DNA of 64,000 bases. Source: Rhizobium tropici CIAT 899. Lineage in GTDB: Bacteria; Pseudomonadota; Alphaproteobacteria; Rhizobiales; Rhizobiaceae. The position numbers and the translations under genes were made by a program. Under the pieces are notes generated by a model. The model was not told the origin of the DNA. It searched no databases and worked only from the letters and a program-made list of their open reading frames with translations. The stretch spans positions 814,374 to 878,373 of the forward strand of contig NC_020062.1 of assembly GCF_000330885.1 (NCBI RefSeq), given 5' to 3'. Positions 11,144-27,971 of the stretch are shown one piece after another (positions within the stretch are counted from its first letter, which is position 1; the number at the start of each line of letters is the position of its first letter).

Positions 11144-12124
11144 TTAAGGAGCGATAATCGGCTGTGCCTTCAGATCAGGCTCGGCCACTTCCGCACCGGC
11201 AAACAGGCTACCATGTTCGAACCAGGATTTGGGAGCGGGTGCGCCCCACAATGTCTGGCGCTGCGGATCCTTGAGATCCCATTTGATCGGTTCCAGATCG
11301 GGATCGACGGTCTGGTAGTCCGAGCAATAGATCTCGATGCGGTGGCCGTCGGGATCGAGAATATAGAGGAAGAAGGCGTTGGAGATGCCGTGGCGGCCCG
11401 GGCCGCGCTCGATATTGGTGACCCAACCTGTTGTTGCCATCAGATCGAGCAGATCGATGATGTTGAGCGGCGTCGGCACCCAGAAGGCGGTGTGGTGCAG
11501 GCGCGGGCCGCGGCCATTGGTGAAGGCGATGTCGTGGACGCCGCCCTTGCGATGCGTCCAGGCCGCCCAGAGACGGCCGGTTTCTTCGTCCTCAGTATAT
11601 TCGGTGACGCGGAAGCCGAGCTCGTTGTAGAAAGCGACGCTTTCGTCAACATTGGTCGAGAAGCAGTTGAAGTGGTCGATGCGCAGCGGCTTCACGCCCT
11701 TGTAAAGCGCGTATTTCTGATGGATCGGCGGCAGGCGGTCCATCTTCGAATAGAACTCAAGCGGGATGCCGTGCGGGTCGCGGGTGCGGAAGGTCCGTGC
11801 CTGGTAGGGACGTTCGACCCATTCAACCGGCAGGTCCTTGTCCTTGAAGAAATGCGCCGCCTTGTCGAGATCCTCGTCACTGAAGACCTTGAAGCCGAGA
11901 TCGCGGGCTTCGGCCTTATCGGACTTTTTCAGCACGATGCAATGATGGCCGCGCTCTTCCATCGCACGCAGGTAGATCGTGTCGGCCGTCTCGTCCGTCA
12001 CCTGAAGGCCGAGCGTGTCGACATAGAAGGCGCGCGACTTGGCAAGATCGGTGACGCCGAACTCGATGTGGCTGAGGCGCACGATGTTGAAGGGCGGATA
12101 GAGATTGGGTTTCGGCAGGGGCAT
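11144..12124 (-). CDS. hpaD: 3,4-dihydroxyphenylacetate 2,3-dioxygenase
   Basis: The 326-residue type I extradiol dioxygenase has two vicinal-oxygen-chelate domains: an N-terminal one from LSHIEFGVTDLAKSRAFY, and a C-terminal catalytic one. The expected 2-His-1-carboxylate metal site is seen as His151 (RIDHFN), His210/211 (RLHHTAFW) and Glu264 (HRIEIYCSDY). It cleaves the ring of homoprotocatechuate to 5-carboxymethyl-2-hydroxymuconate semialdehyde. The protein resembles the Brevibacterium/Arthrobacter-type HPCD more than the class III LigB-type HpaD of E. coli. It lies between hpaE and gabD in the operon. Confidence 0.93.
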   Translation of the reverse strand: MPLPKPNLYPPFNIVRLSHIEFGVTDLAKSRAFYVDTLGLQVTDETADTIYLRAMEERGHHCIVLKKSDKAEARDLGFKVFSDEDLDKAAHFFKDKDLPVEWVERPYQARTFRTRDPHGIPLEFYSKMDRLPPIHQKYALYKGVKPLRIDHFNCFSTNVDESVAFYNELGFRVTEYTEDEETGRLWAAWTHRKGGVHDIAFTNGRGPRLHHTAFWVPTPLNIIDLLDLMATTGWVTNIERGPGRHGISNAFFLYILDPDGHRIEIYCSDYQTVDPDLEPIKWDLKDPQRQTLWGAPAPKSWFEHGSLFAGAEVAEPDLKAQPIIAP

Positions 12125-12163: not shown

Positions 12164-13681
12164 TCAGCCGCCGAGTTTCTGGATCGCGTGCGGCTTGGTG
12201 GCGAAGGCGACGTTCTTGGTTTCCATGTAAAAATCGAAGGACCAGTCGCCGCCGTCGCGGCCGATGCCGGAGCTCTTGACCCCGCCGAAGGGCGTGGGCA
12301 GGTGACGGACGTTTTCCGAATTGACCCAGATCATGCCGGCTTCGAGATGATCGGTGAAACGGAACGCGCGAGTGACGTCGGAGGTCCAGAGATAGCCGGT
12401 CAGGCCGTATTGCACGTCATTGGCCAGTGCCAGCGCGTCGGCTTCATCCTTGAAGGGAATGGCGGTCAGCACGGGACCGAAGATTTCTTCCTGCGCAATG
12501 CGCATCTGGTTGTTGGCACCGGTGAAGAGTGTGGGCGAGACGTAGCAGCCACCGCCCGGGCCGTTGACCTTCTCGCCGCCGGCGGCAAGCGTGGCACCTT
12601 CCGAACGGCCGATCTGAATGTATTCCAGCACCTTCTTTTCATGCACGGGATGGACGAGCGGGCCGACGACCGTTTCAGGATCGAGGGGATGGCCGACCTT
12701 GATGCGCTTGGCCTTTTCGGCGACGATCGCGGTGAATTTGTCGTAGACGCTTTCCTCGACCAGCAGGCGCGAGGACGAGGTGCAGCGCTCGCCGTTTAGC
12801 GAATAGATCATGAAGACGGCGGCATCGGCGGCGCGCTCGAGATCGGCATCGGCAAAGACGATGACCGGGTTCTTGCCGCCAAGCTCGAAATGCACCCGCT
12901 TCAGCGTATCTGCCCCCTGCTTCATGATCATCGAGCCGGTGCGGCTTTCGCCGACAAAACCGATCGCCTTGATCAGGGGATGTTCCGTCAGCGCACGACC
13001 GGCATCTTCGCCCATACCGTTGACGAGGTTCCAAACACCCTTCGGCAGGCCGGCTTCCTCGGCAATTTCGACAAGCAGGCGGGCCGTCAGCGGCGAGAAT
13101 TCTGCCGGCTTGTGGACGATGGTGCAACCGGCGGCAAGCGCCGGCGCGATCTTCCAGGTCGACAGCATGAAGGGCGTATTCCAGGGCGTGATGATGCCGA
13201 CCGGGCCGATCGGAACGCGCGTTGTCAGGTTCACCTGGCCGTCGGCGCGGATCGCCTTGCCGTCACGCGCTTCTGGTGCGCGGTCGGCGAAGAAACGGAA
13301 GTTTTCCGCGCCGCGCAGGGCGGCCTTGGCCATGAACTTCAGCGACTGTCCGGTGTCCATGCACTCGACAAAAGCGATCTCTTCGGCGCGGGCGACGATC
13401 GCGTCGGCAATCTTGTGAAGGAGTTTCTTGCGCGCGTCACCGGGCATCGCAGCCCATTCAGCAAAGGCGGCTTTTGCGGCCTTTGCGGCGCGATCGATAT
13501 CGGCAGCCTTACCGTGAGCAACGGTTGCGAGCGGCTTCAGATCAACGGGGGATATGGTCTCGAATGTGGAGCCATCATCGGCACGCACATCCTCGCCATT
13601 GACGTGGTTCAGTACGCCGTTATCCTTGAATCGGGCGAGAAAGCCTTCGGCCTTTGCGATGTTTTCCTGCAGTTTGGACAT
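12164..13681 (-). CDS. hpaE: 5-carboxymethyl-2-hydroxymuconate semialdehyde dehydrogenase
   Basis: The 505-residue NAD-dependent aldehyde dehydrogenase contains TPWNTPFMLSTWKIAPALAAG, the catalytic Glu in FELGGKNPVIVFADADLE, and the nucleophilic Cys in NGERCTSSSRLLVE, a motif typical of HpaE. It oxidises the ring-cleavage semialdehyde made by HpaD to 5-carboxymethyl-2-hydroxymuconate. Length is as expected. The gene follows hpaF by 41 bases and precedes hpaD by 39. Confidence 0.94.
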   Translation of the reverse strand: MSKLQENIAKAEGFLARFKDNGVLNHVNGEDVRADDGSTFETISPVDLKPLATVAHGKAADIDRAAKAAKAAFAEWAAMPGDARKKLLHKIADAIVARAEEIAFVECMDTGQSLKFMAKAALRGAENFRFFADRAPEARDGKAIRADGQVNLTTRVPIGPVGIITPWNTPFMLSTWKIAPALAAGCTIVHKPAEFSPLTARLLVEIAEEAGLPKGVWNLVNGMGEDAGRALTEHPLIKAIGFVGESRTGSMIMKQGADTLKRVHFELGGKNPVIVFADADLERAADAAVFMIYSLNGERCTSSSRLLVEESVYDKFTAIVAEKAKRIKVGHPLDPETVVGPLVHPVHEKKVLEYIQIGRSEGATLAAGGEKVNGPGGGCYVSPTLFTGANNQMRIAQEEIFGPVLTAIPFKDEADALALANDVQYGLTGYLWTSDVTRAFRFTDHLEAGMIWVNSENVRHLPTPFGGVKSSGIGRDGGDWSFDFYMETKNVAFATKPHAIQKLGG

Positions 13682-13722: not shown

Positions 13723-14109
13723 TCATTTGCCGCGCAGCCGCGGATGAATGGCGTTCTTTTTCCAGCTCAGCTCCGCATCGATCTCGCGGATCTCCAGCGA
13801 AAGCGCGAAATGCGGCGTCTCGAATAGGGGGGCGAGAACGTCGATCGCGGCGGCAAAGATTGCTTCGCCGGTGCGCTTCTTCTCTTCGTCCGTGCGGCCC
13901 TTGCCGATGCGGAAGTTCAGATCGACGAAGGCGTTTTCCGGCAGCTTGTCGGCGATGGCGTAGTGATCGGCGCGAAAGGCGCGCACCCGCACGGCACCGA
14001 TCTCGAAAAGGCCGGTGTCCAGAACCGTCTTCAGCAGCCGTTTGCAGAGCGCGCCGATATCGGCGCGGCCCTCCAGATTGGCCGAATATTCGATGGCGAG
14101 ATGTGGCAT
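13723..14109 (-). CDS. hpaF: 5-carboxymethyl-2-hydroxymuconate delta-isomerase
   Basis: This 128-residue tautomerase-superfamily protein starts MPHLAIEYS. Pro1, exposed after removal of the initiator Met, is the family's catalytic base. The C-terminal ENAFVDLNFRIGKGR and IREIDAELSWKKNAIH segments agree with CHMI proteins, which act as trimers in the cytoplasm and isomerise the HpaE product. It is the first gene of the hpa operon, with a strong GGGAGGA ribosome-binding site and the operon's regulatory region directly upstream. Confidence 0.93.
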   Translation of the reverse strand: MPHLAIEYSANLEGRADIGALCKRLLKTVLDTGLFEIGAVRVRAFRADHYAIADKLPENAFVDLNFRIGKGRTDEEKKRTGEAIFAAAIDVLAPLFETPHFALSLEIREIDAELSWKKNAIHPRLRGK

Positions 14110-14134: not shown

Positions 14135-14167
14135 TTAACACGTTAACAATTGTGTCGAGGATGTCAA
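14135..14167 (-). promoter_or_regulatory. regulatory region of the hpaF-E-D-gabD-G-H-I operon
   Basis: The 54-base gap before hpaF holds TTAAC-AC-GTTAA (14135-14146) overlapping a second perfect palindrome, ACAATTGT (14146-14153). On the minus strand a TTGACA (14167-14162) overlaps the kinase stop codon, but the hexamer 17 bases downstream is a poor -10 and falls in the palindrome. This arrangement fits a promoter covered by a MarR-type repressor such as HpaR. Binding is inferred. Confidence 0.4.
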
Positions 14168-15183
14168 GCGGCTGCCTTGAGCATTCTTGCCATATCGAGG
14201 CTTTCATCGACGTAACGCGACAGACGCTCGGCGCTGTCCGGAATTTCCGGGCGTTCGGCGAGCCATCCGATATATGTAAGGCTCCGCAGCAGCATGAATA
14301 GAGGCAGGCTCGCCAGCGTTGCGTCGGAGAGCACCCGTCGACTGCGATAGCCTGATATCAATGCTTTCTCGATTGCGGGATAGGCGGGTTCGCTGCGGTT
14401 CTTGAGCAGAGTCGTCGCGAGATCGAACAGGCGGAAGCCATGCCCCGCATCGTCGAAATCGATGAAAGCGACATTGCCGTCAGTTCCTGTCAGGAAGATG
14501 TTTTCCCGCACGAGGTCGGCATGGATCAGCCCGCAATCGAGAGTTTGACTGTTCGCGTTCGCAAGGGCGTGGCGTAGCTCGTCGCGCAAAGCCGAGAGCG
14601 CGATGATGCTGTCGGATGGAAGGCCTCGGCAATCCCAGAAGCGGCCCCAGAGCGGCTTTTCGCCGAGCAGCCCATTGATGTCCCAAACCGGGCGGCGAAA
14701 ACGTTCCGGTGGTTCCCACGCATCGGCAAGCGCGTGCATGGTGGCCATGTTCTGCCCGATACGGAAGAAGATTGCTTCCTGCAACTCGACAGACTGCGAT
14801 AGCGGCACGCCACTTTGGCCAAGCGGCACACCATCGATCCAGCTCACCACATCGGCATGCTGCTCGGCAAAATGCCTGTTGGCCGGCAGTCGGACGAGGC
14901 TCTGCTTTCTGCTTGTCGGCACAGGGCTCGGCACATCCAGGCCGCCGAGCTTGAGGGCGGCCATGAAGTGCAGCTCCGAGCGCAGGCTCGTTTCATCATG
15001 ATAGCCCGGGCGATGCAGCCGGAGCGCGGCGAATTGCCCGTCTTCCAATGTAATGCGGAAGACGGCGTTCTCCCGATATTTCATCAGCATGGGCTCGTGC
15101 GCCCGCACGGACCAATTGTCGAGCGCCTCAAGCGCCCGCTTCTGCAAGGCGTCGTGGATGTTTTGCGGCAACTGATCAGCCAT
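14164..15183 (-). CDS. APH/hydroxylysine-kinase-like phosphotransferase
   Basis: This 339-residue aminoglycoside-phosphotransferase-fold kinase has the catalytic loop LIHADLVRENIF with Asp223 and Asn228, followed by the metal-binding FIDFDDAGHGF (Asp242 region). The closest known relatives of such stand-alone kinases next to AGXT2L-type enzymes are hydroxylysine kinase (AGPHD1) and homoserine-kinase II-like proteins. The gene ends a six-gene minus-strand operon and begins 6 bases after the phospho-lyase gene, so the pair very likely acts in sequence. The kinase would phosphorylate the hydroxyl of an amino alcohol, and the lyase would eliminate phosphate and ammonia. The substrate is not proved; the location next to the hpa operon suggests an aromatic amino alcohol. 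Confidence 0.8.
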   Translation of the reverse strand: MADQLPQNIHDALQKRALEALDNWSVRAHEPMLMKYRENAVFRITLEDGQFAALRLHRPGYHDETSLRSELHFMAALKLGGLDVPSPVPTSRKQSLVRLPANRHFAEQHADVVSWIDGVPLGQSGVPLSQSVELQEAIFFRIGQNMATMHALADAWEPPERFRRPVWDINGLLGEKPLWGRFWDCRGLPSDSIIALSALRDELRHALANANSQTLDCGLIHADLVRENIFLTGTDGNVAFIDFDDAGHGFRLFDLATTLLKNRSEPAYPAIEKALISGYRSRRVLSDATLASLPLFMLLRSLTYIGWLAERPEIPDSAERLSRYVDESLDMARMLKAAA

Positions 15184-15189
15184 ATCGCC

Positions 15190-16473
15190 TCACAGGCCAG
15201 ACAGGACGTCGTCGAAGATCGACAACATGTAGTCGGCATTTTCCCGCGTGAACGGCATGGGCGGGCGGATCTTCGTGGCGCATTGGTGAATGCCGATCTT
15301 GCCCATCAGCACGCCGCGTTCGCGCATTTCGTTGACGATGCGGGTCGCCTCAGCGGTTGCCGGCTCCTTCGTTTGCCTGTCGAGCACGAATTCCGTACCC
15401 ATGAAGAGGCCGCTGCCGCGCACGTCGCCGATGATCGAATGTTTCTCGGCCAGCCGCTGGAAGGCATGGCGGGTGTATTCGCCGACATTGCGGGCATTCT
15501 CGATGAGGTTTTCGTCCCCGATGACATCGAGCACGGCCATGGCAGCCGCGCAGGAGACCGGATTGCCGCCGAAGGTATTGAAATAGCGGAACGCCTTGCG
15601 AAAGGCGTTTATCGTGTCGAGATTGGCAATCACGCCGCCAACAGGGTGGCCGTTCGCCATCGGCTTGCCGAGTGTCACGATATCGGGAACGATGCCGGCG
15701 TGCTGGTGACCCCACATATGCGTGCCGGTACGGCCAAAACCGGGCTGCACCTCGTCGGTAATCACGAGGCCGCCGGCTTTGCGTACGGCTGTGACCGTCT
15801 TGTCGAGAAAGCCCGGCGGCAGATCCGGAAAGCCTTCATTGGCAAAGAACGGATCGATGATGATCGCCGAGAATCCGTGAGGTGTGTCTTGAAGCGAGGC
15901 GATCGCCCTCTCGACTTCGGCCGCGAAGGCCGTAGCAAAGGCCTCTCCGCCCTCGCCATCGAGCGGACGGTAGCTGTCGGGAGCCGGCACATGGCGGACA
16001 TGGCCGCCGAAACCGCCAACCGGCGGCATACGGGTCGAGAGCTGCGATACCGCGGTCGTATTGCCATGATAGGTGTGGTTCGTGGCGATGACGCCGGTCT
16101 TGCCGGTCACAGCCTGCGCCATGCGCAGGGCCACGTCGTTCGCCTCGCTGCCGGTGCAGGTCAGGATCGCAGCATTGAGGCTTTTGTCGAAGGTTGCAGT
16201 CAGCCGCTCGACATAGTCGAGAATGCTTTCATGCAGGTAGCGGGTATGCGTGTTCAGCGTCGAAGCCTGCCGCGCGATCGCTTCCACCACACGGGGGTGG
16301 CAATGGCCGACATGCGGCACATTGTTGTAGCAATCGAGATATTTACGGCCGTCGGCATCCCATAGCCAAACGCCTTCCCCCCGCACGAGATGCACGGGGT
16401 CGTCATAGAAGAGCGACATGTTGCGGCCTAAAAGTCGTTCACGGCGCGCGATAAGGGCGGCATTGTCGGACAT
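15190..16473 (-). CDS. class III PLP enzyme of the amino-alcohol-phosphate phospho-lyase (AGXT2L) type
   Basis: The 427-residue protein looks like a class III aminotransferase, with LDCYNNVPHVGHCHP near residue 47, Asp240 in ITDEVQPGFGR and the PLP lysine Lys270 in DIVTLGKPMANGHP. The NVxHVGHCHP and GKPxxNGHPV patterns and the ending of the large domain (FNTFGGNPVSCA) are those of ethanolamine-phosphate and 5-phosphohydroxylysine phospho-lyases, not ordinary transaminases. These remove phosphate and ammonia to leave an aldehyde. The ATG at 16473 was chosen because homologous sequence begins there; upstream extension to 16689 is non-homologous and overlaps the previous gene. It is two bases after the transaminase gene. 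Confidence 0.85.
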   Translation of the reverse strand: MSDNAALIARRERLLGRNMSLFYDDPVHLVRGEGVWLWDADGRKYLDCYNNVPHVGHCHPRVVEAIARQASTLNTHTRYLHESILDYVERLTATFDKSLNAAILTCTGSEANDVALRMAQAVTGKTGVIATNHTYHGNTTAVSQLSTRMPPVGGFGGHVRHVPAPDSYRPLDGEGGEAFATAFAAEVERAIASLQDTPHGFSAIIIDPFFANEGFPDLPPGFLDKTVTAVRKAGGLVITDEVQPGFGRTGTHMWGHQHAGIVPDIVTLGKPMANGHPVGGVIANLDTINAFRKAFRYFNTFGGNPVSCAAAMAVLDVIGDENLIENARNVGEYTRHAFQRLAEKHSIIGDVRGSGLFMGTEFVLDRQTKEPATAEATRIVNEMRERGVLMGKIGIHQCATKIRPPMPFTRENADYMLSIFDDVLSGL

Positions 16474-16475
16474 GG

Positions 16476-17831
16476 TTAGCCCCTTGCGGCGGTGAGACCT
16501 GCGTCGAGCGCGGTCAGCATGGTCTGGACATTCTCGGCGGTCACGATCAGCGGCGGCGACATGATGACGTTGGCGCCCGAGGTGCGCACGAGAACGCCGG
16601 CGTCGTAGGTCGCGTCCTGCACCTTCTGGATCACATCCTTGGCGGCGCCACTCTTTTTGGCACGGTCGCTGACGAGCTCGAGGGCGCACATCAGGCCTTT
16701 GCCGCGAACGTCGCCCACCAGTTCATGCTTGTCCTGCAGCTTCTTCAGGCCGGCGAGCAGTTCTTCACCACGCGCGGCAGCGTTATCCGCGACGTTGAGC
16801 CGCTTGGTTTCCTTCAAGGTGGCAAGGGCTGCTGCGGCGCCAACCGGATGGCCGGAATAGGTGTAGCCGTGACCGATGCTTCCGACCGCGCTCTTGTTGC
16901 TTTCGAAGACCTGAGCGACCTTGTCGGAGATCATCACGGCTCCGAAGGGGAAATAGCCGTTGGTGATCGCCTTGGCCGTCGACATCATGTCCGGCTGTAC
17001 GCCCCAGAGGCGCGATCCGGTCCACGCGCCGGTGCGGCCGAAAGCGGTGATGACCTCGTCGGCGATCAAGAGAATGCCGTGACGGTCGCAGATTTCACGC
17101 ATCAACGGCAGGAAGGTTTCGTGCGGGACGATGACGCCGCCGGCGCCGAGCACCGGTTCGACGATCAGCGCGGCAATGGTATCGGCTCCCTGGAAGGCAA
17201 TCTCGTCCTCGAAGAGCCTGCCGATGGCAGCCGCAATCTCGGCGCCATCGGTGGTGTTGAATGGGTTGCGATAGGGGAAGGGCGCGGGCAGATGGATGAC
17301 GCCCGGGAGCAGCGGTTCGTAATTGCGGCGGAAATTCTGGTTGCCGTTGACGGAAGCGCCGCCAAAATGCGTGCCGTGATAGCCCTTCTTCAGCGCAAAG
17401 AATTTGGTGCGCTCGGGCTGGCCGTTGACCTTGTGGTATTGCCGAGCCAGCCGCAGGCAGGTCTCGACCGAATCCGAGCCGCCCGAGGTGAAGAAGGAAC
17501 GGCTGAGGCCATCCGGCTTGAACCATTCGGCAAGCTCGTAGGACAGTTCGATCAGCGGCGAGTTGGTCGTGCCGCGGAAAGTCGAATAATAGGGCAGATC
17601 GTCGAGCTGGTCGCGGATCGCCTTCTTCACCGGCTCGCAGGAGTAGCCGAGATTGACGTTCCAGAGGCCGCCGACGGCATCAAGTACCTTCTGGCCGTGA
17701 ATATCGACTATTTCGACGCCTTCGCCGGAATTGATGATGCGAGGCGGATTGGCCTGCATCTCGGCTGGATGGGCCATCGGGTGCCACAGGTGGCGTGCGT
17801 TATTTTCGATGATGAAATTGGTCTCACGCAT
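16476..17831 (-). CDS. class III (omega) aminotransferase
   Basis: The 451-residue PLP enzyme has HLWHPMAHP at residue 14, TSGGSDSVETCLRLARQYH at 116, KKGYHGTHFGG at 148, Asp258 in IADEVITAFGRTG and the Schiff-base Lys287 in STAKAITNGYFP. This is the omega-amine:pyruvate / taurine-pyruvate type, which transfers the amino group of a primary amine to pyruvate. The ATG at 17831 follows an AGAGGAA ribosome-binding site; a longer frame to 17879 overlaps the HAD gene. In this block it could deaminate an arylethylamine directly to the aldehyde. The substrate is inferred from context only. Confidence 0.88.
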   Translation of the reverse strand: MRETNFIIENNARHLWHPMAHPAEMQANPPRIINSGEGVEIVDIHGQKVLDAVGGLWNVNLGYSCEPVKKAIRDQLDDLPYYSTFRGTTNSPLIELSYELAEWFKPDGLSRSFFTSGGSDSVETCLRLARQYHKVNGQPERTKFFALKKGYHGTHFGGASVNGNQNFRRNYEPLLPGVIHLPAPFPYRNPFNTTDGAEIAAAIGRLFEDEIAFQGADTIAALIVEPVLGAGGVIVPHETFLPLMREICDRHGILLIADEVITAFGRTGAWTGSRLWGVQPDMMSTAKAITNGYFPFGAVMISDKVAQVFESNKSAVGSIGHGYTYSGHPVGAAAALATLKETKRLNVADNAAARGEELLAGLKKLQDKHELVGDVRGKGLMCALELVSDRAKKSGAAKDVIQKVQDATYDAGVLVRTSGANVIMSPPLIVTAENVQTMLTALDAGLTAARG

Positions 17832-17847
17832 GTCAAATTCCTCTTGT

Positions 17848-18498
17848 TCAGAGCCCCAGCATCGCAAGTGCGCGGGCATAGCTTTCGGCAGGGCGGGTCA
17901 CGTCGAAATGCACGTGAGGCAGGTTCACGGCTTCGGCACCCTCGATGTTCTTCCTCTGGTCGTCGACGAAGACGCAGGCCTCGCGTGCCAAATTGAGCTC
18001 GGCAAGAACGAGCTCGTAGGCGCGGAGATCGGGTTTCAGGATCTTCGTATAGGTCGCATCGACGATGACGTCGAAAAGCTCGATCAGCGGAAAACGTTGG
18101 CGGAATTCGACGCCATAGAAGAGGTCGAGCTCGTTCGACAGGATCGCCAGCTTCAGGCCGGCTTCTTTCGCACGCAGGATAGCGTCGCGGGCTTCCGGGC
18201 GCAGAACCAGCTCCGGTTCGGCTCCGCGCGCCCGGCGCACGAAGGTCTGCATGTCCGTCCAGTTTTCGCCGACCATCTTGCCGACTTCGCCGGCCCGCGT
18301 GAGCCAATAGTCGCGTTCTGTAATCTCGCGGTTCTGCATTGCGACCCAAAGCGGGTCTGTCGCCGTGTCGAACGGCCCGAGCCAGGTCAGCGATCCCGGG
18401 GGAAGGCCAAGCGTGCGCTCGGTGATGTCATGGGTTTCGAACAGCGTGCGGGTAACGACGCCGCCAAAATCGAGGATAAGTGCGCGATCTTGGGTCAT
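17848..18498 (-). CDS. HAD-superfamily hydrolase
   Basis: The 216-residue protein carries the four HAD motifs: motif I ILDFGGVVT near the N-terminus (the nucleophilic Asp is present, but the usual +2 Asp is replaced by Gly in DFGG), motif II LAILSNE, motif III lysine in TKILKPD, and motif IV CVFVDDQRKN. Subclass IA helical cap. The D-x-G variation is seen in some dehalogenase/epoxide-hydrolase-N type members, so phosphatase activity is doubtful. It overlaps the UPF0261 gene stop (ATGA) and precedes the transaminase by 16 bases. Role in the amine block unknown. Confidence 0.85.
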   Translation of the reverse strand: MTQDRALILDFGGVVTRTLFETHDITERTLGLPPGSLTWLGPFDTATDPLWVAMQNREITERDYWLTRAGEVGKMVGENWTDMQTFVRRARGAEPELVLRPEARDAILRAKEAGLKLAILSNELDLFYGVEFRQRFPLIELFDVIVDATYTKILKPDLRAYELVLAELNLAREACVFVDDQRKNIEGAEAVNLPHVHFDVTRPAESYARALAMLGL

Positions 18499-19748
18499 GG
18501 CCGTCCCTCCGGAATGACGCCTTCGGCGACCCATCGATCGAAGATGGCAAGGGCGGCGGCAGAGAAGGCGGGCGCATTGATATGGGCGTCAACTTCGTGA
18601 AGAGCGACAGAGGGCGGAACGGCGCGGCGCATCTCATCGATGAATGCGTCAAGGCCTTCCGGATCATGGAGGGGCTCATCCGGCTTGTCCCATTCCTGCA
18701 ATCCTTCGGTCGGCAGCAGGAAGGCGACTTTCGCTTCTGCGCGTTGCAATTTCCGTCCGATCAGCCGCGCGACTTCACGCCGGCCTTCAGGCGAGGTCGT
18801 CACCGATCCGATCAGCCGGTTATGAGCGTGGTAGGGTCGATCCGCGAAGATTGTGGGCAAGTCCTGCCACGCCTGGAGATCGACCATATCGACGGCACCG
18901 GGTGCGACGATCTGCGGAATGCCGGCCCGCCCTGCGTTTTCCAAACGATCGGGTCCAGAGGTGACGACGCTGCTATAATGATGATTGCTGACTTCCTGGA
19001 TGCAGAAATCGAAGACGGCGGCAAAGTCTCCCTTCGCAGCGATTGCTTCATAGGCGCGCCCGCCCATGCCGGTGGAATGGAATACGGCGACGTCATAGCC
19101 GCGCTTTTCCAGCTCGGGCCGCAGATATTTCATATATTTGAGGCAGGACGAGCCGAGCGAGGTCATGCCGACGAGGGGTCGTTCTCGATCGGGCTTGGTG
19201 CCGTGCTTGGCAGCGCCGACGACCGCGCCGCAGGCTTGCGAGAGCACGGAGCGGCAGATGCTGTTAAGGCCGTAGAGACCGCCAGCCCACAGAATCATCA
19301 TCAGATCGGGGGCAATGCGTTCGGGCGGAATGAGGTGGGAGTAGGCAATGGTCGAGACCACGAATTTGGGGACGCCGAGCGGCAGGATGGCGGCCACATC
19401 GAGCGCCAGGTCCGTTCCCATGGAGCCGCCGAGCACGATGATGCCGTCGATGAGCCCGTCTTCATAGAGGCGGAGGGTCAGGACCGACGCACCCTTCGCC
19501 ATAGCCGCCATGGCGCTGTTTTCATCGCCGCTTTCGGCAATCGCCGCAATCGTGGTTCCGGCAGCCTCGGCAATGTCGTGCTTGGAATAATCAGGATTAT
19601 AGGGCGGATCGCTGAGAATGCTGACATCCATCATCACCGGGCGGCCGCCCGCTTCGGAGATGACGGATGCCATAAACTGCAGTTCGTCGCATTTGGTGTC
19701 ACCGGTTCCGATGACGAGTATCCGTGGTGAGGGAGCCTCCGGGCTCAT
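18495..19748 (-). CDS. Tm-1-like ATP-binding (UPF0261) family protein
   Basis: This 417-residue protein belongs to the UPF0261 family, whose N-terminal half is related to the tomato Tm-1 resistance protein. Characteristic segments are ILVIGTGDTKCDELQFM at the start, VLGGSMGTDLAL near 108-120, GMTSLGSSCLKY near 213, VFHSTGMGGRAYE near 244 and the conserved GAVDMVD motif near 307. Biochemical function is not established in bacteria. The ATG at 19748 shares a base with the iclR stop (TGATG), so it is co-translated with the regulator. An in-frame TTG one codon upstream is less likely. Its presence inside an amine-catabolic operon is notable. Confidence 0.88.
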   Translation of the reverse strand: MSPEAPSPRILVIGTGDTKCDELQFMASVISEAGGRPVMMDVSILSDPPYNPDYSKHDIAEAAGTTIAAIAESGDENSAMAAMAKGASVLTLRLYEDGLIDGIIVLGGSMGTDLALDVAAILPLGVPKFVVSTIAYSHLIPPERIAPDLMMILWAGGLYGLNSICRSVLSQACGAVVGAAKHGTKPDRERPLVGMTSLGSSCLKYMKYLRPELEKRGYDVAVFHSTGMGGRAYEAIAAKGDFAAVFDFCIQEVSNHHYSSVVTSGPDRLENAGRAGIPQIVAPGAVDMVDLQAWQDLPTIFADRPYHAHNRLIGSVTTSPEGRREVARLIGRKLQRAEAKVAFLLPTEGLQEWDKPDEPLHDPEGLDAFIDEMRRAVPPSVALHEVDAHINAPAFSAAALAIFDRWVAEGVIPEGRP

Positions 19749-20533
19749 CAATCCGTCCTCTTGGGTTTCGCAATGGTTTCCGTGGGTCTTTCCGACCCGT
19801 AGTATTTTTCTGAGATAGCGTTGGCTGCAGCAGCTGTCTGCGCGCCGAATTCGTGAATGGCGGCCGTGTTGGTGCGCGAGAGCGGAGCGGCGATCGCCAC
19901 ACAGCCAATCGGTCGGCCGGCTGGGGTGCGCACGGGTGCCGCCGTGCTGATGACGCCGGCCTCCAGGCCCTGGTCAATGATGGAAAAACCTCGTGCTGCG
20001 GTTTCAGCGAGCATCTTACGCAGCAATTGGGGATCGGTGACGGTGTGATCGGTAAATTTCTCAATCGGCTTTTTAAGCGCTGCGTCGATTTCTGCCTGTG
20101 GACAGAAGGCCAGAAAGGCGAGGCCCGATGCCGTCGCATGGAAGGGAAGGAGGCTGCCGACATCGACGATGATGCGGTGCGCGCGTGCCGAATCCTCGAC
20201 GTGAATGGTCGAGAGCTGTCCGCCTGAAAACTCCGAGAGATGAACGGTCTCGGTCGAGGCTTCGGCAAGCGCCTTGATGAAAGGAATTGCGATCCGCAGG
20301 AAGGGAAAGCGCGCTTCCCGGATGCGAGCGAGGCGGACCGGCGCCGAGCCGATGCGGTAGCGGCGCGTGTCCTGATCCTGCTCGACGAAGCTGTGTTTTT
20401 CCAGCTCCACGAGAAAGCGTCGTGCCGTTGCCTTGTCCAGCGCGCACAGGCGAGCGATGTCGGTCAGACCCGCCTCCTTGTCCAGCCGTGACAGGGTGTC
20501 AAGCAATGCCAGCGCCTTTCCGATCGTGCTCAT
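19748..20533 (-). CDS. IclR-family transcriptional regulator
   Basis: The 261-residue protein has an N-terminal winged helix (about 5-65: LALLDTLSRLDKEAGLTDIARLCALDKATARRFLVELEKH) and a C-terminal ligand-binding IclR domain containing STIHVEDSARAHRIIVDVG and a C-terminal APLSRTNTA region. It probably controls the operon it heads (IclR, UPF0261, HAD, transaminase, phospho-lyase, kinase) and the divergent permease and aldehyde dehydrogenase genes from the shared 317-base intergenic region. The inducer is unknown. Confidence 0.9.
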   Translation of the reverse strand: MSTIGKALALLDTLSRLDKEAGLTDIARLCALDKATARRFLVELEKHSFVEQDQDTRRYRIGSAPVRLARIREARFPFLRIAIPFIKALAEASTETVHLSEFSGGQLSTIHVEDSARAHRIIVDVGSLLPFHATASGLAFLAFCPQAEIDAALKKPIEKFTDHTVTDPQLLRKMLAETAARGFSIIDQGLEAGVISTAAPVRTPAGRPIGCVAIAAPLSRTNTAAIHEFGAQTAAAANAISEKYYGSERPTETIAKPKRTD

Positions 20534-20850
20534 TGTTCCTCCTCTTGGGTTGGTCAGGTTCTGATTCTGTGCGTTCCAGCCTCGGCTTCCGTCAAATCAG
20601 CTTGCTGACCCTGCACCACGGCACGATAGCAGTGACCCAAGATACTTAACATGCGAAATAACTTGACAGAGGCCGGCAATGTTTGCAAGTCTATATTTGA
20701 AGCTGTGGTTCAAATAATGAACCATAAGCGCTGACGACGGCTAAATCAACAAAAGCATAAGCCCGCTCGTCAGTCCGGTTTTTGGTGGAGGTCGCACGCG
20801 TGCAATCGCAGCGATGATCGGATGTTCTTAAACAAGGGGAACGAACGCAG
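20534..20850. promoter_or_regulatory. divergent regulatory region, iclR / APC permease
   Basis: This 317-base gap contains no gene that I can support. It holds a perfect 7-bp inverted repeat, TGGTTCA and TGAACCA with a five-base AATAA spacer (20706-20724), the size and form of IclR-family operators. A TTGACA at 20663-20668 has no convincing -10 at normal spacing. An AGGGG stretch before 20851 can serve as ribosome-binding site for the permease. Confidence 0.5.
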
Positions 20851-22305
20851 ATGAACACGCAAAATTCGCAAGGTGCGGCTGAAAACCAGCTGCGCAAAAA
20901 CAGTCTCGGCGTCGGTGCCGTGACCTTCCTCGTCGTTTCGGCTGCCGCGCCGCTGACGGCTGTTGCCGGCGGCGTGCCGCTTTCGATGATGCTCGGCAAC
21001 GGGCCGGGTATTCCGCTCACCTTCCTACTGGTGACGGCTATTCTGTTGCTGTTTGCAGTCGGCTACGTCGCCATGGCGCGTCATATTCGCAATGCTGGTG
21101 CCTTCTATGCCTATACGGCGCAGGGCCTTGGCGGTCTCATGGGCGGTGCCGCCGCGCTCATTGCCATTCTCGCCTATAATGCCATGCAGGTCGGCGTTCT
21201 CGGGCTTTTCGGTGCCGCGACCAAGGGCTTCTTCGCCGAGCAGCTCGGTCTCGATCTTCCGTGGTGGGTCTGGAGCTTCATCGGCATCGCCTTCGTTGCC
21301 GTCTTCGGCTATCGGCGCGTCGATCTGTCGGCCAAGGTGCTGACCGTGCTTGTCATTCTCGAATATCTCGTCGTGCTCGTCATCGACGCCGCGATCTTCG
21401 CCAAAGGTGGCGATGCCGGCCTCTCGGCATCGCCTTTCACGCCGACCGCCTTTTGGAGCGGAACGCCGGCCATCGGCCTCCTGTTCTGCTTTGCCGCCTT
21501 CATCGGCTTCGAAGCGACGACCATCTATAGCGAAGAGGCCCGTGAGCCGGAAAAGACCGTGCCGCGCGCCACCTATATCTCCGTTCTCATCATCGGCCTT
21601 TTCTATATGCTGACCTCCTGGCTGATGGTGACGGGCGCCGGCGTCGACAAGCTCGTGCCGACCCTGCAGGGCCTCGCCGATCCCACCACCTTCCTCTTCG
21701 GCCTTGCCGAGCGCTATGTCGGCCATTGGATTACCGTCGTGATGAGCGTGCTCTTCATCACCAGCCTGTTTGCCGGCATTCTTGCCTTCCACAACGGCGT
21801 GGCGCGCTACATGTATGTCGCCGGCCGCGAAGGCCTGCTGCCGAAGTCGGTCGGCGTCACGCATCCGGTCTTCCAGAGCCCGCATGTCGGCTCGATCATT
21901 CAGACCGTTATTGCTATTCTGGTGATCGCGCTTTTCGCGGTGACAGGCCAGGATCCAGTGCTGGCGCTCTTCTCCTGGCTCACCAATGTTGCGACGCTGG
22001 CGATCATCCTACTGATGGCCTTCACCGCCTTCTCGATCGTGGTGTTCTTCAGCCGCAATCCGGGGTTCGAGAGCAATGTGCTCGTTATCAAGGTGCTTCC
22101 GATCGTGACGGGACTCATTCTGCTCGCACTCGTCTATTATATCTCGGCGAATTTCGGCGCGATTGCCGGCGCCAATGGCGTGCTTGCGGTGGTCTTGCCG
22201 GGCCTGGTGCTGATTGCCGGCATCATCGGCTTTATCGCGGCGGCTCGCCTGAAGTCGTCCGATGCGGCAGGCTATGCCCGCCTCGGCGCCGGCCAGGAAG
22301 CCTGA
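20851..22305 (+). CDS. APC-family amino acid/amine permease
   Basis: The 484-residue inner-membrane protein has about 12-14 membrane helices and the APC-superfamily hallmarks: LGVGAVTFLVVSAAAPLTAVAGG in helix 1, FAAFIGFEATTIYSEEAREPEKTVPRA in helix 6 and the following loop, and an extended C-terminal helix. It imports an amino acid or amine by cation symport. Divergent from the IclR operon and followed by an aldehyde dehydrogenase, it is the natural uptake system for the amine degraded by this block. The precise substrate cannot be read from sequence. Confidence 0.88.
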   Translation: MNTQNSQGAAENQLRKNSLGVGAVTFLVVSAAAPLTAVAGGVPLSMMLGNGPGIPLTFLLVTAILLLFAVGYVAMARHIRNAGAFYAYTAQGLGGLMGGAAALIAILAYNAMQVGVLGLFGAATKGFFAEQLGLDLPWWVWSFIGIAFVAVFGYRRVDLSAKVLTVLVILEYLVVLVIDAAIFAKGGDAGLSASPFTPTAFWSGTPAIGLLFCFAAFIGFEATTIYSEEAREPEKTVPRATYISVLIIGLFYMLTSWLMVTGAGVDKLVPTLQGLADPTTFLFGLAERYVGHWITVVMSVLFITSLFAGILAFHNGVARYMYVAGREGLLPKSVGVTHPVFQSPHVGSIIQTVIAILVIALFAVTGQDPVLALFSWLTNVATLAIILLMAFTAFSIVVFFSRNPGFESNVLVIKVLPIVTGLILLALVYYISANFGAIAGANGVLAVVLPGLVLIAGIIGFIAAARLKSSDAAGYARLGAGQEA

Positions 22306-22361
22306 ACCAGTTCCAATCACGGTGGCGGGAAAACCCGCCACCCTCTCTGTGAGACAATGAG

Positions 22362-23840
22362 ATGCAGGAAAAGATCGACCAGCTCCGGACTTTATCCGTT
22401 TCGCCGCAGGCATTGTTCATCGCAGGCGCCTGGCGCCAGCCGATCAGCGGCGCTGCGATGGACGTCACTTCGCCGATCGACGGAACAAAGCTGACCACCA
22501 TTGCCGATGCCGGCACTGATGATGTCGATCTGGCCGTCAAGGCTGCACGCCATTCCTTCGAAAAGGGCAGTTGGTCGAAGGCGGCGCCGGCCGAACGCAA
22601 GAAGGTGTTGCTGAAAATTGCCGAACTGATCGAGAAGAACGCGCTTGAACTCGCCGTACTCGGCGTGCGTGACAACGGCACGGAAATTTCGATGGCGCTA
22701 AAGGCCGAGCCCGGCAGCGCCGCCGGCACGTTCCGTTACTATGCCGAGGCGGTCGACAAGGTCTATGGCCAGATCGCGCCGACGGCTCAGAATATTCTCG
22801 GTCTCGTCCATCGCGAGGCCATCGGCGTCGTTGCCGCTATCGTGCCGTGGAATTTCCCGATGATGATCGGCGCCTGGAAGATCGCGCCGGCGCTTGCTGC
22901 CGGCAATTCCGTCGTGCTGAAGCCCGCCGAGGGCGCGTCGCTGACGCTGCTGAAGCTTGCCGAAATTTGCGCCGAGGCCGGATTGCCCGAAGGCGTGCTC
23001 AACGTCGTGACCGGGCGCGGTGCGGTCTGCGGCGAGGCACTGGGGCTGCACATGGATATCGATGTCCTCGCCTTCACCGGTTCCGGCCCCGTCGGACGGC
23101 GGCTCCTGGAATATTCGGCGCGCTCGAATCTGAAGCGTGTCTACCTGGAGCTTGGCGGCAAGTCGCCGAACATCGTCTTTGCCGATGCGCCCGATCTCGA
23201 TCAGGCGGCCAAGGTTTCCGCCTATGGCATTTTTCGCAATTCCGGCCAGGTCTGTGTCGCCGGTTCCCGGCTGCTTGTGGAGAAGTCGATTCATAAGGCC
23301 TTCTCCGAGAAAGTGACCGGCATTGCCGAAAGCATGAAAGTTGGCGATCCCCTGCAGCTTTCGACGGAAGCCGGAGCTATCTCCAGCGAGGTCCAGCTGA
23401 GAAAAGACCTTGGCTATGTCTCGCAGGCGGTATCGGAGGGTGCATCGCTGCGCACCGGTGGTTCGCGTATTCTTGAGGAGACGGGCGGCTATTACATGCG
23501 GCCGACCGTATTCGATGCGACGCCGTCGATGACGCTGGCGCGGGAAGAGGTCTTCGGCCCGATCCTGTCGATCATCCCCTTCGAAACGGAGGCCGAGGCA
23601 CTTGAGATCGCCAATGCCACTGAATACGGCCTTGCCTCGGCCGTCTGGACGTCGAACATGTCGTGCGCCCATCGGATGGTGCGGGGCATCCGCGCCGGCG
23701 TGGTGCATGTCAACACCTATGGCGGCAGCGATAACAGCGTGCCGCTCGGCGGCGTCAAGCAATCCGGCAATGGTCATGACAAGTCGCTGCATGCGCTCGA
23801 CAAATATGTCGATCTGAAGACGGCTTGGATTCAGCTCTGA
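22362..23840 (+). CDS. NAD-dependent aldehyde dehydrogenase (candidate arylacetaldehyde dehydrogenase)
   Basis: This 492-residue aldehyde dehydrogenase has VPWNFPMMIGAWKIAPALAAGN, the catalytic Glu in LELGGKSPNIVFADA and the nucleophilic Cys in NSGQVCVAGSRLLVE. It resembles broad-specificity betaine/phenylacetaldehyde-type enzymes. It lies 56 bases after the permease gene and ends at a strong terminator. In the proposed pathway it would oxidise the aldehyde made by the transaminase or the phospho-lyase to the carboxylic acid, which could be 4-hydroxyphenylacetate. Family membership is certain; the substrate is inferred. Confidence 0.9.
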   Translation: MQEKIDQLRTLSVSPQALFIAGAWRQPISGAAMDVTSPIDGTKLTTIADAGTDDVDLAVKAARHSFEKGSWSKAAPAERKKVLLKIAELIEKNALELAVLGVRDNGTEISMALKAEPGSAAGTFRYYAEAVDKVYGQIAPTAQNILGLVHREAIGVVAAIVPWNFPMMIGAWKIAPALAAGNSVVLKPAEGASLTLLKLAEICAEAGLPEGVLNVVTGRGAVCGEALGLHMDIDVLAFTGSGPVGRRLLEYSARSNLKRVYLELGGKSPNIVFADAPDLDQAAKVSAYGIFRNSGQVCVAGSRLLVEKSIHKAFSEKVTGIAESMKVGDPLQLSTEAGAISSEVQLRKDLGYVSQAVSEGASLRTGGSRILEETGGYYMRPTVFDATPSMTLAREEVFGPILSIIPFETEAEALEIANATEYGLASAVWTSNMSCAHRMVRGIRAGVVHVNTYGGSDNSVPLGGVKQSGNGHDKSLHALDKYVDLKTAWIQL

Positions 23841-23929: not shown

Positions 23930-24442
23930 TCAGCCGCCGAAGCTGCCCGTCTGGGTCGGCACATGCACATAGTTGCGGTCAAAATAGAGCAGGGCATGCC
24001 CATCCTTGCGGCTGCGGATATCCATGACTTCACCGATGAAGATATGGTGCGTGCCGACCAGGCGCGCTTCCGTCAGACGGCAATCGAAGGAGACGATCGC
24101 ATCGGAAAGCGCCTGGCTGCCGGAGCGGAAGTTGATCCATTCCGCCGCGGCATAGCGCTCCTCCATGTCGGCGCGTTGGCCGGCGAAATAGCCGGCCAGT
24201 TCCTTGTGCTCCTGCGTCAGGACATTGACGCAGAAGCGACGATTATCAAGGAAGAGGCTTGTTTGCGCCGAGCGGCTGTTCATGCAGACCAGCAGCGTCG
24301 GCGGCTCGTCGGTGACGCTGCACATGGCGGTCGCGGTAAAGCCGCCGCGGCCGGCAGGGCCGTTGGTGGTGATCACGTTGACCGGCGCGCAAACCCTGGC
24401 CATGGCGTTGCGAAATTCGGTTTTCGAGAGTTGCTCCTCCAT
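23930..24442 (-). CDS. hpaC: 4-hydroxyphenylacetate 3-monooxygenase, flavin reductase component
   Basis: The 170-residue flavin reductase-like domain protein supplies reduced flavin to HpaB. Typical features are the N-terminal FRNAMARVCAPVNVITTNGP, the FTATAMCSVTDEPPTLLVCMN flavin-binding segment, and the C-terminal HHIFIGEVMDI and ALLYFDRNY. The ATG at 24442 (MEEQLSK) is preceded at proper distance by TGAGGA and lies 10 bases after hpaB; a longer frame to 24487 overlaps hpaB. It is the second gene of the hpaBC unit. Confidence 0.93.
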   Translation of the reverse strand: MEEQLSKTEFRNAMARVCAPVNVITTNGPAGRGGFTATAMCSVTDEPPTLLVCMNSRSAQTSLFLDNRRFCVNVLTQEHKELAGYFAGQRADMEERYAAAEWINFRSGSQALSDAIVSFDCRLTEARLVGTHHIFIGEVMDIRSRKDGHALLYFDRNYVHVPTQTGSFGG

Positions 24443-24452
24443 GGCAACGTCC

Positions 24453-26015
24453 TCACTCGGCAGCGCTGCGGACTGGGGAGGTGTCACCGAGGGGTGGCAG
24501 CCACGTATCTCCGGTCCAGCCGTTCTCGTCGTAATCGCTCATGCACTGATCGACGAGCGCTTCCATTTCCTTCAGCCGCCCGCCGCGCTCGGCGCCCTTC
24601 AGCACCTGCAGACGGACTTCCTCCGGCGCGCCGGCATAGTTGAGCTCATAGAGGGCATGGCGTCCGCCGAATTCGGTGCCCGTTGCGTCCCACAGCAGCT
24701 TCATGATCTTGATGCGCTCGATATGGCCCATATCGTTGGAACCGCGCACATATTGCGCGAGGTAGCGGTCGATCTCCGGATTGCCGAAATCCTTGGCCGA
24801 GGAAGGCAGGTAGATCAGCCCCGAAGCGATGACCCTGCGTACGGTTTCGATGACGCGCGGATAGGCCTCCGACATGAAGGTGCGATAGGAGAGGGCTGCT
24901 TCCATGTTCGGCAGCACCGCGCCATTGGCCCAAGGCTGCGGATTATAGGCCATGGCGTTGGAAAACGACCAGAACATGTGGCGAAGCGCGATGATTTCGC
25001 CGAGTGCCGCCTGGTTGCCGCGGAAGGCATCGCCGCCGGTCGCGCGCAGCGCCTTGGCGAGCAGCCCGGCGATGAAGTCGAGCTTCACGGCAAAACGGGT
25101 GCAGCCCTGGAAGCAATAGCCATGCATGAAGCCCGAGGCCGGATGAAAGGAGAGTATCTTGGCCGCATCGCGCAGCACGAGCACGTCCTCCCAGGGCACG
25201 AAGACATTATCGAGCACCAGGATCGCGTCGTTCTCGTCAAAGCGAGAAGACAACGGATAGTCGAAGGGATGTCCCACGGTATTGGCGGTCTGCTCGTAGG
25301 AGACGCGGCAGAACATCTTGATGCCAGGGGCATTCATCGGAACGATGAACATGACCGACAGAGACGGGTCTTCCGTGACCGTCGCCGAGCTCTGGGCAAG
25401 GAAATTATAGTGGGTCAACGCCGAAGACGTCGCTACCACCTTGGCACCGGAGACGTAGATGCCGGCATCGGTCTCCTTGGTGATGTGGACGAAAACGTCC
25501 TTAACGGCATCGGCCGGCTTGTGACGGTCGATCGGCGGATTGACGATCGCGTGGTTCATGAAGAGCACGGATTCCTGCGCCCGCTTATGCCAGGAAAGCG
25601 CATTGTCCTTGAACGGCCCATACCAGTCGGCATTGGCGCCGAGCGTGTTCATGAGGGCCGCCTTGTAATCGGCGGTGCGGCCCATCCAGCCATAGGACAT
25701 GCGCGCCCAATCGGCGATGGCGCCTTGCTGGGCGACAAGCTCGGCGGAGGATTTTGCTACCCGGAAGTATTTGTGGGTATAGCCGCCTGAACCGGTATCG
25801 GTCGGGGATGTCAGACGATCCTTGGTCTTTTCATCGTGCAGCGCGTCGTACATGCGGGCGAGCGAGCGGACGGAATTGCGCATGGCTGGATGCGCAGTTA
25901 CATCGGCGATGCGCTCGCCATTGATATAGACTTCGCGGCCGTCGCGCAGGCTTTCCAGATATTCGGCGCCGGTAAATGGGCGGGTCTTGTCGCTGCGGTG
26001 ATCTTCAGCTCGCAT
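24453..26015 (-). CDS. hpaB: 4-hydroxyphenylacetate 3-monooxygenase, oxygenase component
   Basis: This 520-residue FADH2-dependent hydroxylase converts 4-hydroxyphenylacetate to homoprotocatechuate, the substrate of HpaD. The family features seen are TGAEYLESLRDGREVYINGE at the start, the N-terminal domain with ADWARMSYGWMGRTADYKA, the substrate/flavin region SALTHYNFLAQ and the DRYLAQYVRGSNDMGHIERIK helix near the end. The ATG at 26015 has an AGGGAGGA ribosome-binding site eight bases upstream, which decides this start over an in-frame TTG/ATG at 26039. It is divergent from hpaA. Confidence 0.94.
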   Translation of the reverse strand: MRAEDHRSDKTRPFTGAEYLESLRDGREVYINGERIADVTAHPAMRNSVRSLARMYDALHDEKTKDRLTSPTDTGSGGYTHKYFRVAKSSAELVAQQGAIADWARMSYGWMGRTADYKAALMNTLGANADWYGPFKDNALSWHKRAQESVLFMNHAIVNPPIDRHKPADAVKDVFVHITKETDAGIYVSGAKVVATSSALTHYNFLAQSSATVTEDPSLSVMFIVPMNAPGIKMFCRVSYEQTANTVGHPFDYPLSSRFDENDAILVLDNVFVPWEDVLVLRDAAKILSFHPASGFMHGYCFQGCTRFAVKLDFIAGLLAKALRATGGDAFRGNQAALGEIIALRHMFWSFSNAMAYNPQPWANGAVLPNMEAALSYRTFMSEAYPRVIETVRRVIASGLIYLPSSAKDFGNPEIDRYLAQYVRGSNDMGHIERIKIMKLLWDATGTEFGGRHALYELNYAGAPEEVRLQVLKGAERGGRLKEMEALVDQCMSDYDENGWTGDTWLPPLGDTSPVRSAAE

Positions 26016-26110
26016 CTCGTATTCCTCCCTTGAGATCATGGCTGACGCTACGTCCGGAGCCTTGCCGCGACCATGGACAAAGAGGGCAATTCGCTGGTAC
26101 TTTTTCCGGC

Positions 26111-27874: not shown

Positions 27875-27971
27875 GGTGAGCGAAAAGTCCAGTATCACTT
27901 TCGTCCATGTAGTGAACCATCGCTGACAGCTAGATTCAATGGGCAATCAGTTCAAACCATAGGCGAGTGAA

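Follow-up and report, generated by a model that had tools for sequence, protein, structure and literature searches.

We analysed a 64,000-nucleotide stretch of the Rhizobium tropici CIAT 899 genome (the window; C4:814374-878373 of a four-contig, 6.69-Mb genome), in which a block of amine-catabolic genes at 14164-23840 lies within the genes for 4-hydroxyphenylacetate breakdown (hpa). Close relatives in other collections were Rhizobium species. The initial annotation had described one overlapping operon of a kinase, a phospho-lyase, an omega-transaminase, a HAD protein, a UPF0261 protein and an IclR regulator, divergent from an APC permease and an aldehyde dehydrogenase, the whole embedded between two groups of hpa genes. 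We found all of the named genes to be open and in the claimed order. From the kinase through the IclR gene, the minus-strand genes are separated by 6, 2, -32, -40 and -4 bases, indicating a tight operon, and the permease and aldehyde dehydrogenase genes are located opposite, on the plus strand. The embedding was also confirmed, with hpaF-E-D-gabD-G-H-I on the left of the block, and hpaC-hpaB and an AraC-type gene on the right.

Genes of the block and of the flanking hpa cluster

The gene at 14164-15183 (minus strand; KIN) encodes an APH-fold small-molecule kinase (Pfam APH, 89 bits) predicted to act on a beta-amino alcohol of the octopamine type. Its APH domain has the HxDxxxxN and DFD motifs, which are the catalytic motifs of APH-fold kinases. 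The closest solved structure to KIN is an amino alcohol kinase, the aminopropanol kinase 6ef6. The adjacent gene (15190-16473, minus strand; PLY) was assigned by structure-sequence matches and motifs to the AGXT2L (ETNPPL/PHYKPL) group of ammonia/phosphate lyases, which depend on pyridoxal phosphate (PLP). PLY is a class-III aminotransferase family protein (Aminotran_3, 261 bits, cut-off 30.5); among solved structures it matched the A. aurescens phospholyase 5g4i at 405 bits and human ETNPPL (6tor) at 361 bits, while the next best match reached 202 bits, indicating that PLY is far nearer to phospho-lyases than to any transaminase. Moreover, PLY, 5g4i and 6tor have in common the motifs NNV, YHG[NH], GKPMxNGHP and N-T-[FY]-x-GNPVS, of which the transaminase of the block shares only YHG; these motifs probably mark lyase activity. 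We also identified a natural PLY-KIN fusion in a relative (L103:9484-11634), a single open frame of 789 residues from stop to stop. The nearest solved relatives (an aminopropanol kinase and phospho-lyases) and the fusion strengthened the pairing of kinase and phospho-lyase made in the initial annotation, and suggest that KIN and PLY are most likely a working pair, with a beta-amino alcohol as the predicted substrate.

The same genome encodes two further AGXT2L-like genes, 51% and 39% identical to PLY. The former (PLY2) lies with a second kinase at C4:1389354-1393598 (L002, L089:8798-11262); by eye, its neighbours are an aldehyde dehydrogenase, a gamma-glutamyltransferase-like gene and another transaminase, with no tie to hpaD. 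The latter is found at C1:298975-303246 (L003), within a 994-residue open frame that perhaps resembles the PRK06148/PRK06149 fusions of NCBIfam.

The remaining operon genes start with a class-III omega-transaminase (OTA; 16476-17879, minus strand; PRK07481, 773 bits, cut-off 575), a predicted phenethylamine (tyramine/dopamine-type) transaminase whose best solved matches are the aminotransferase family protein 6s54 (427 bits) and the omega transaminase 5lh9 (425 bits), and whose translation may in fact begin at the internal Met 17. It is followed by a HAD-superfamily phosphatase-like protein (17848-18534, minus strand; Pfam Hydrolase, 62 bits), a UPF0261 (Tm-1-like) protein (18495-19751, minus strand; PRK02399.1-4, 730 bits, cut-off 556), which is a predicted handler of a p-hydroxyphenyl compound, and the IclR-family regulator of the block (19748-20533, minus strand; Pfam IclR_C and HTH_IclR). 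A structure search with UPF0261 gave Tm-1 and 9mpy, the other matches being weaker and of different kinds, so that no function was assigned. On the plus strand lie the APC-family amine/amino-acid permease (20851-22305; Pfam AA_permease_2), replaced by TctC/TctB/TctA in many relatives, and the aldehyde dehydrogenase (ALDH; 22362-23840; Pfam Aldedh, 533 bits), predicted to act on (4-hydroxy)phenylacetaldehyde; its nearest NCBIfam models are PuuC, BADH and StyD, and it scores below the cut-off of every one.

Among the flanking genes, curated NCBIfam cut-offs were passed by HpaE (12164-13681; TIGR02299, 780 bits, cut-off 638), the type I homoprotocatechuate 2,3-dioxygenase HpaD (11144-12124; TIGR02295, 420 bits, cut-off 321), GabD (9621-11075; PRK11241, 849 bits, cut-off 828), HpaH (7922-8725; TIGR02312, 447 bits, cut-off 351) and HpaI (7104-7910; TIGR02311, 405 bits, cut-off 369), all on the minus strand, and by HpaR (6512-7033, plus strand; TIGR02337, 167 bits, cut-off 121). 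In some relatives the gabD slot holds an aromatic amino-acid decarboxylase. HpaF (13723-14109, minus strand) was named from orthologues that adjoin hpaE in relatives. Three further minus-strand genes scored under their NCBIfam cut-offs, namely an HpaG-like protein of the C-terminal type only (8725-9597; TIGR02303, 163 bits, cut-off 276), an HpaC-like flavin reductase (23930-24487; TIGR02296, 160 bits, cut-off 206) and an HpaB-like 4-hydroxyphenylacetate 3-monooxygenase oxygenase (24453-26039; TIGR02310, 753 bits, cut-off 885). The AraC-type regulator divergent from hpaB (26111-27004, plus strand) had no NCBIfam match at E ≤ 1e-40 and was labelled hpaA-like by eye, from its position and from orthologues that adjoin hpaB in relatives. 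Beyond it, at 27047-28895, an AraC-type regulator is divergent from a phytanoyl-CoA dioxygenase-like gene (by eye), likewise with no NCBIfam match at E ≤ 1e-40.

Co-occurrence with hpaD and modular composition

The lyase was present in only 5 of 199 genomes of an order-wide sample, and a family-level sample was therefore chosen. The 247 genomes of the window's family were searched with six queries (PLY called at E ≤ 1e-150, hpaD at E ≤ 1e-100 and UPF0261 at E ≤ 1e-120), and hpaB orthologues were counted at ≥ 88% identity, which left uncounted 6 further genomes with only 51-55% matches. PLY was identified in 26 genomes (17 of 109 genera), hpaD in 63, UPF0261 in 55, hpaB orthologues in 24 and paaA in 88. 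All 26 PLY-positive genomes carried hpaD, against 63 of 247 overall (p = 3.5e-18), all 26 carried the UPF0261 gene of the hpa-linked core, and 18 an hpaB orthologue. UPF0261 was itself accompanied by hpaD in 47 of 55 genomes, including 21 of the 29 that are PLY-negative. PLY and hpaD were at most 10 kb apart in 13 of the 26 genomes; in the other 13, some of which are draft assemblies, hpaD was present but not close to PLY.

The paralogue PLY2 served as control. It was present in 22 genomes (15 genera), of which 8 carried hpaD (p = 0.17); all 8 were also PLY-positive, and hpaD was found in none of the 14 genomes with PLY2 and without PLY. When the position tables of the family sample were compared by eye, there was no case of PLY2 within 20 kb of hpaD on one contig. 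A chance neighbourhood of PLY and hpa was ruled out by this control, and the conserved association with hpa genes, whose lack the initial annotation had said would speak against its reading, was observed in this sample. We also considered phenylacetate as a general exit. paaA was enriched in PLY-positive genomes (16 of 26 versus 88 of 247 overall, p = 0.004) but missing from 10 of the 26, and phenylacetate was rejected in this role, although it may provide a side route. Octopamine- and phenylethanolamine-like substrates had both been suggested in the initial annotation; plain phenylethanolamine is the poorer fit, because these 10 lyase-bearing genomes are without paaA.

In 13 PLY-negative genomes of the family, UPF0261 was located within 20 kb of hpaD. 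Ten of these loci, together with three stretches from PLY-positive genomes, made up a set in which modularity was examined. The 10 PLY-negative hpa-linked loci had OTA in 10, IclR in 10, HAD in 9 and ALDH in 7, and none had KIN or PLY. The kinase and lyase, which the initial annotation had placed at the centre of the block, were thus displaced from it, given that the transaminase/UPF0261/IclR module adjoins hpa without them in 10 of 10 loci. These results indicate that the core consists of OTA-HAD-UPF0261-IclR-transporter-ALDH and that KIN-PLY is an optional add-on. The genomes G069 (L105) and G105 (L121), which belong to one genus, both have hpa, OTA-HAD-UPF0261-IclR, APC and ALDH; KIN-PLY is present in G069 alone, where it closes the OTA operon. 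In G347 and G408, KIN-PLY is found elsewhere with an IclR copy, and the core stays beside hpa. Furthermore, a locus with a window-type operon (L104 of G356; OTA 81%, HAD 82% and UPF0261 75% identical) carries a foreign pair (PLY 63%, KIN 44%), which is 89% (PLY) and 68% (KIN) identical to the pair of a Tct-type cluster (L073), indicating that KIN and PLY were exchanged together as a unit. Judged from these sequence comparisons, KIN-PLY is a two-gene plug-in, predicted to act as one unit.

The palindrome and gene neighbourhoods in relatives

The gap between iclR and the permease gene contains a perfect palindrome, GGTTCA-N5-TGAACC (GGTTCAAATAATGAACC), at 20707-20723, a predicted IclR operator. 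It is the sole exact copy in the window, and a scan of the 6.69-Mb genome found three exact copies, the other two at C4:1676074 and C1:3341406. Its conservation was assessed in 51 loci with iclR and UPF0261/OTA, where the palindrome was present within 450 bp upstream of iclR as an exact copy in 29, with one mismatch in 7 and with two in 3; loci with Tct instead of APC are included among the 29. With at most one mismatch, it was also found in 8 of the 13 stretches of the modularity set. It lies between UPF0261 and a divergent dioxygenase gene in L017, L094 and L095, and, with one mismatch, between UPF0261 and a divergent decarboxylase gene in L093. IclR is predicted to bind the palindrome. Control of the window's hpa promoters by IclR was rejected, as the palindrome is absent there. 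Just before the palindrome, a TTGACA ... TATATT stretch (20663-20697, plus strand), read from the sequence as a possible promoter, is mostly conserved in an alignment of 25 intergenic regions; a standard sigma-70 promoter at this place was dropped, since the two elements are spaced by 23 bases.

The palindrome also precedes an Amidohydro_3 gene in five loci, exactly in L096 and L109, with one mismatch in L012 and L091, and also in L092 (L109:16700-19626, L096:18212-19870, L012:1-2297, L091:11831-14739, L092:11865-14739). The Pfam assignment was made on L109 and L091, and the other three are 69-82% identical homologues. A Peripla_BP_6 binding protein gene adjoins it in every locus except L096, which stops at this point. 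The Amidohydro_3 enzyme may release amines from amides.

To describe neighbourhoods more widely, the best 80 of 595 confirmed PLY-like loci in the GTDB genome collection were kept; they are not a random sample, and many of them end early at contig ends. KIN was close to PLY in 75 of the 80 (none in L037, L040, L041, L085 and L086), and UPF0261 was near PLY in 42. One or more hpa structural genes (≥ 40% identity) were located in the retrieved DNA around the lyase in 25, in varied arrangements. The block is embedded in hpa in Rhizobium and Ensifer, and hpa is on the opposite side and strand in Mesorhizobium; hpa genes likewise adjoin the block in Rhodobacterales (L042, L043, L046, L054, L058, L059), where Tct genes usually take the place of the APC permease, and in Granulosicoccaceae (L048, L061). 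The aromatic amino-acid decarboxylase of relatives, which matches the DOPA decarboxylase 7xin at 392 bits, is located between hpaD and hpaG in L013, L018, L042 and L054, and near UPF0261 in L017, L020, L093 and L095. In L017, L094 and L095, the first gene divergent from UPF0261 encodes a homoprotocatechuate dioxygenase of type II, which is not related to HpaD of the window (L017: TIGR02298, 447 bits, cut-off 316; 8iq8, 357 bits), and homologues of about 54% identity occur in the hpa loci L046, L117, L124 and L126. A second type of homoprotocatechuate dioxygenase beside UPF0261 provides independent evidence for 3,4-dihydroxyphenylacetate as the product.

We noted further genes in the amine clusters. 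A cytochrome P450 and a glutamine-synthetase-like gene occur side by side in L023, L048, L051, L058 and L126, a cytochrome P450 also in L028, L029, L032, L069, L054 and L121, and a two-domain DAO + GCV_T dehydrogenase, hinting at N-methylated amines, in L035, L047, L050, L052, L099 and L100.

Proposed route, rival readings and known systems

Based on the gene content and its conservation, we consider it probable that the block forms the amine-entry half of homoprotocatechuate catabolism, with the core serving phenethylamines and KIN-PLY serving beta-hydroxylated ones. Tyramine, dopamine or a similar phenethylamine would be imported and transaminated by OTA to the arylacetaldehyde, which ALDH would oxidise to 4-hydroxy- or 3,4-dihydroxyphenylacetate. 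For a beta-hydroxylated phenethylamine (octopamine, norepinephrine), KIN would phosphorylate the benzylic hydroxyl, and PLY, through a PLP aldimine, would eliminate phosphate and ammonia to give the same arylacetaldehyde. HpaBC would add a ring hydroxyl where needed, HpaD/E/F/G/H/I would degrade the ring, and the entry genes would be controlled by IclR through the palindrome. An upper pathway into the 4-hydroxyphenylacetate route was already part of the initial annotation; this idea gained from the co-occurrence with hpaD in 26 of 26 genomes, the linkage in differing arrangements, the decarboxylase and the second dioxygenase, while its chemical steps stay predictions.

Several results weigh against this assignment. 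Eight of the 26 PLY-positive family genomes are without an hpaB orthologue, and HpaB, HpaC and HpaG are family-level names only, owing to their scores under the cut-offs. The palindrome is lacking within 450 bp of iclR in 12 of the 51 loci and is absent from the window's hpa promoters, and HAD and UPF0261 are kept in the core although the proposed scheme needs neither. Genomes with PLY2 also carry hpaB (8 of 22, p = 0.0003) and PLY (p = 0.0006) more often than expected, so that the control is not wholly independent; the sampled genomes are related, and the p-values therefore overstate independence and are guides only. An exit check covered 50 loci (49 genomes) without adjacent hpaD, five further loci, including L021 with the amine set, being left out. 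hpaD was found elsewhere in 28 of the 49 genomes; by locus class (table read by eye), it was present for 15 of 21 UPF0261/OTA clusters, 9 of 20 loci of a PLY-KIN clade without the core and 4 of 9 of the rest. The 6 of 21 UPF0261/OTA loci without nearby hpa whose genomes lack hpaD indicate that another exit exists or that these clusters serve another amine; three of them (L047, L052, L074) are isolates with the amine set, showing that the hpaD exit is not universal outside the family. The 20-locus clade belongs to Rhodobacterales; tblastn found neither core nor hpa genes around its PLY-KIN pairs, which may serve another purpose, possibly with a different amino alcohol. This clade includes L024, L025, L044, L053, L062-L064, L068 and L070, and its neighbours look housekeeping-like by eye.

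The coreless clade is one reason to ask whether KIN-PLY instead break down one of the small aliphatic amino alcohols (ethanolamine, 1-amino-2-propanol, hydroxylysine), the position in hpa being incidental or the substrates mixed. The characterised relatives (the 5g4i phospholyase, ETNPPL and the aminopropanol kinase 6ef6) use such substrates, and in G347 and G408 the pair is located away from hpa. However, hpaD accompanies PLY in all 26 genomes even when unlinked, a pattern not shared by PLY2, and this genomic control argues against hydroxylysine or ethanolamine as the substrate. The UPF0261 gene of the hpa-linked core is likewise present in all 26, and the two other AGXT2L-like genes of the same genome could cover aliphatic amino alcohols. 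We therefore regard this explanation as unlikely.

Slightly less likely still is a beta-hydroxy aromatic amino acid or another, N- or O-methylated, aromatic amino alcohol in place of octopamine or norepinephrine. The decarboxylase of relatives would fit the former, and the P450 and glutamine-synthetase-like genes (in L023, L048, L051 and L058) and the DAO/GCV_T dehydrogenases suggest N-/O-substituted upstream substrates. However, the decarboxylase would strip the carboxylate ahead of KIN and PLY, dealkylation would lead back to octopamine-type amines, and all of these genes are absent from the window's block. That the block serves simple phenethylamines only, with PLY a disguised aminotransferase and KIN phosphorylating something unrelated, is very improbable: PLY does share the fold of class-III aminotransferases, aminotransferase is the label of most named entries among the 120 matches listed and the core occurs without PLY, but PLY lies closest to phospho-lyases in score and motifs, is fused to KIN in L103 and exchanged with it in L104, and OTA already provides a transaminase.

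The preferred assignment of the block to amine entry can be extended, tentatively and with more doubt than confidence, to a modular 'phenethylamine catabolon' of Alphaproteobacteria, in which an IclR core with swappable APC or Tct transporters would carry the octopamine/norepinephrine plug-in and further palindrome-controlled plug-ins, and UPF0261 would be a new p-hydroxyphenyl enzyme or binder. The decarboxylase plug-in would then free amines from amino acids, and the Amidohydro_3 plug-in (L012, L091, L092, L096, L109), accompanied by an ABC binding protein wherever the locus extends that far, would free them from phenolamides of plants, for example feruloyl-octopamine and feruloyl-tyramine.

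That bacteria can degrade octopamine and norepinephrine has been known, at the level of activity, since the 1980s. If the proposed route is correct, it would supply genes, a transferable two-gene unit and a direct assay for the use of phenolic beta-hydroxy amines by soil and plant-associated bacteria, add aromatic compounds to the substrates known for AGXT2L lyases, and assign the uncharacterised UPF0261 proteins to the catabolism of aromatic amines. A kinase/phospho-lyase route for octopamine, norepinephrine or other aromatic amines was not found in a search of open-access literature that excludes most subscription papers, and no such pathway was named in search listings for octopamine kinases, for UPF0261 or for the degradation of feruloyl-octopamine. 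This chemistry is known for aliphatic amino alcohols and, within the literature searched, would be new for aromatic biogenic amines.

In the known amino alcohol route, a 1,2-amino alcohol is phosphorylated on its hydroxyl by an APH-fold kinase, after which elimination by a class-III PLP lyase yields phosphate, ammonia and an aldehyde, the last being the substrate of an aldehyde dehydrogenase. The block resembles this route (6ef6, 5g4i) in having all three kinds of protein, and differs in that KIN and PLY are found among hpa genes together with a transaminase and UPF0261, that the block showed no gene for a microcompartment, and that the predicted substrate bears a hydroxyphenyl group where H or CH3 is found there. 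The substrates of ETNPPL and PHYKPL (AGXT2L1/2) are phosphoethanolamine and 5-phosphohydroxylysine (PMC8154272). PLY belongs to the same lyase group, with motifs in common and 361 bits to ETNPPL, and an aromatic substrate is predicted for it. The UPF0261 protein Saro_1862 (9mpy) differs from that of the window in organism and neighbourhood. In the 3,4-dihydroxyphenylacetate catabolon for tyramine and dopamine of Pseudomonas putida U and in the catabolism of aromatic biogenic amines by P. aeruginosa PAO1, the amines reportedly pass through the arylacetaldehyde and the arylacetate to homoprotocatechuate meta-cleavage; the amine is said to be oxidised there by a dehydrogenase or oxidase, and octopamine to be handled by an ATP-independent hydrolyase activity. 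The block described here would follow the same amine-to-homoprotocatechuate sequence, with a transaminase and a kinase/phospho-lyase pair predicted instead.

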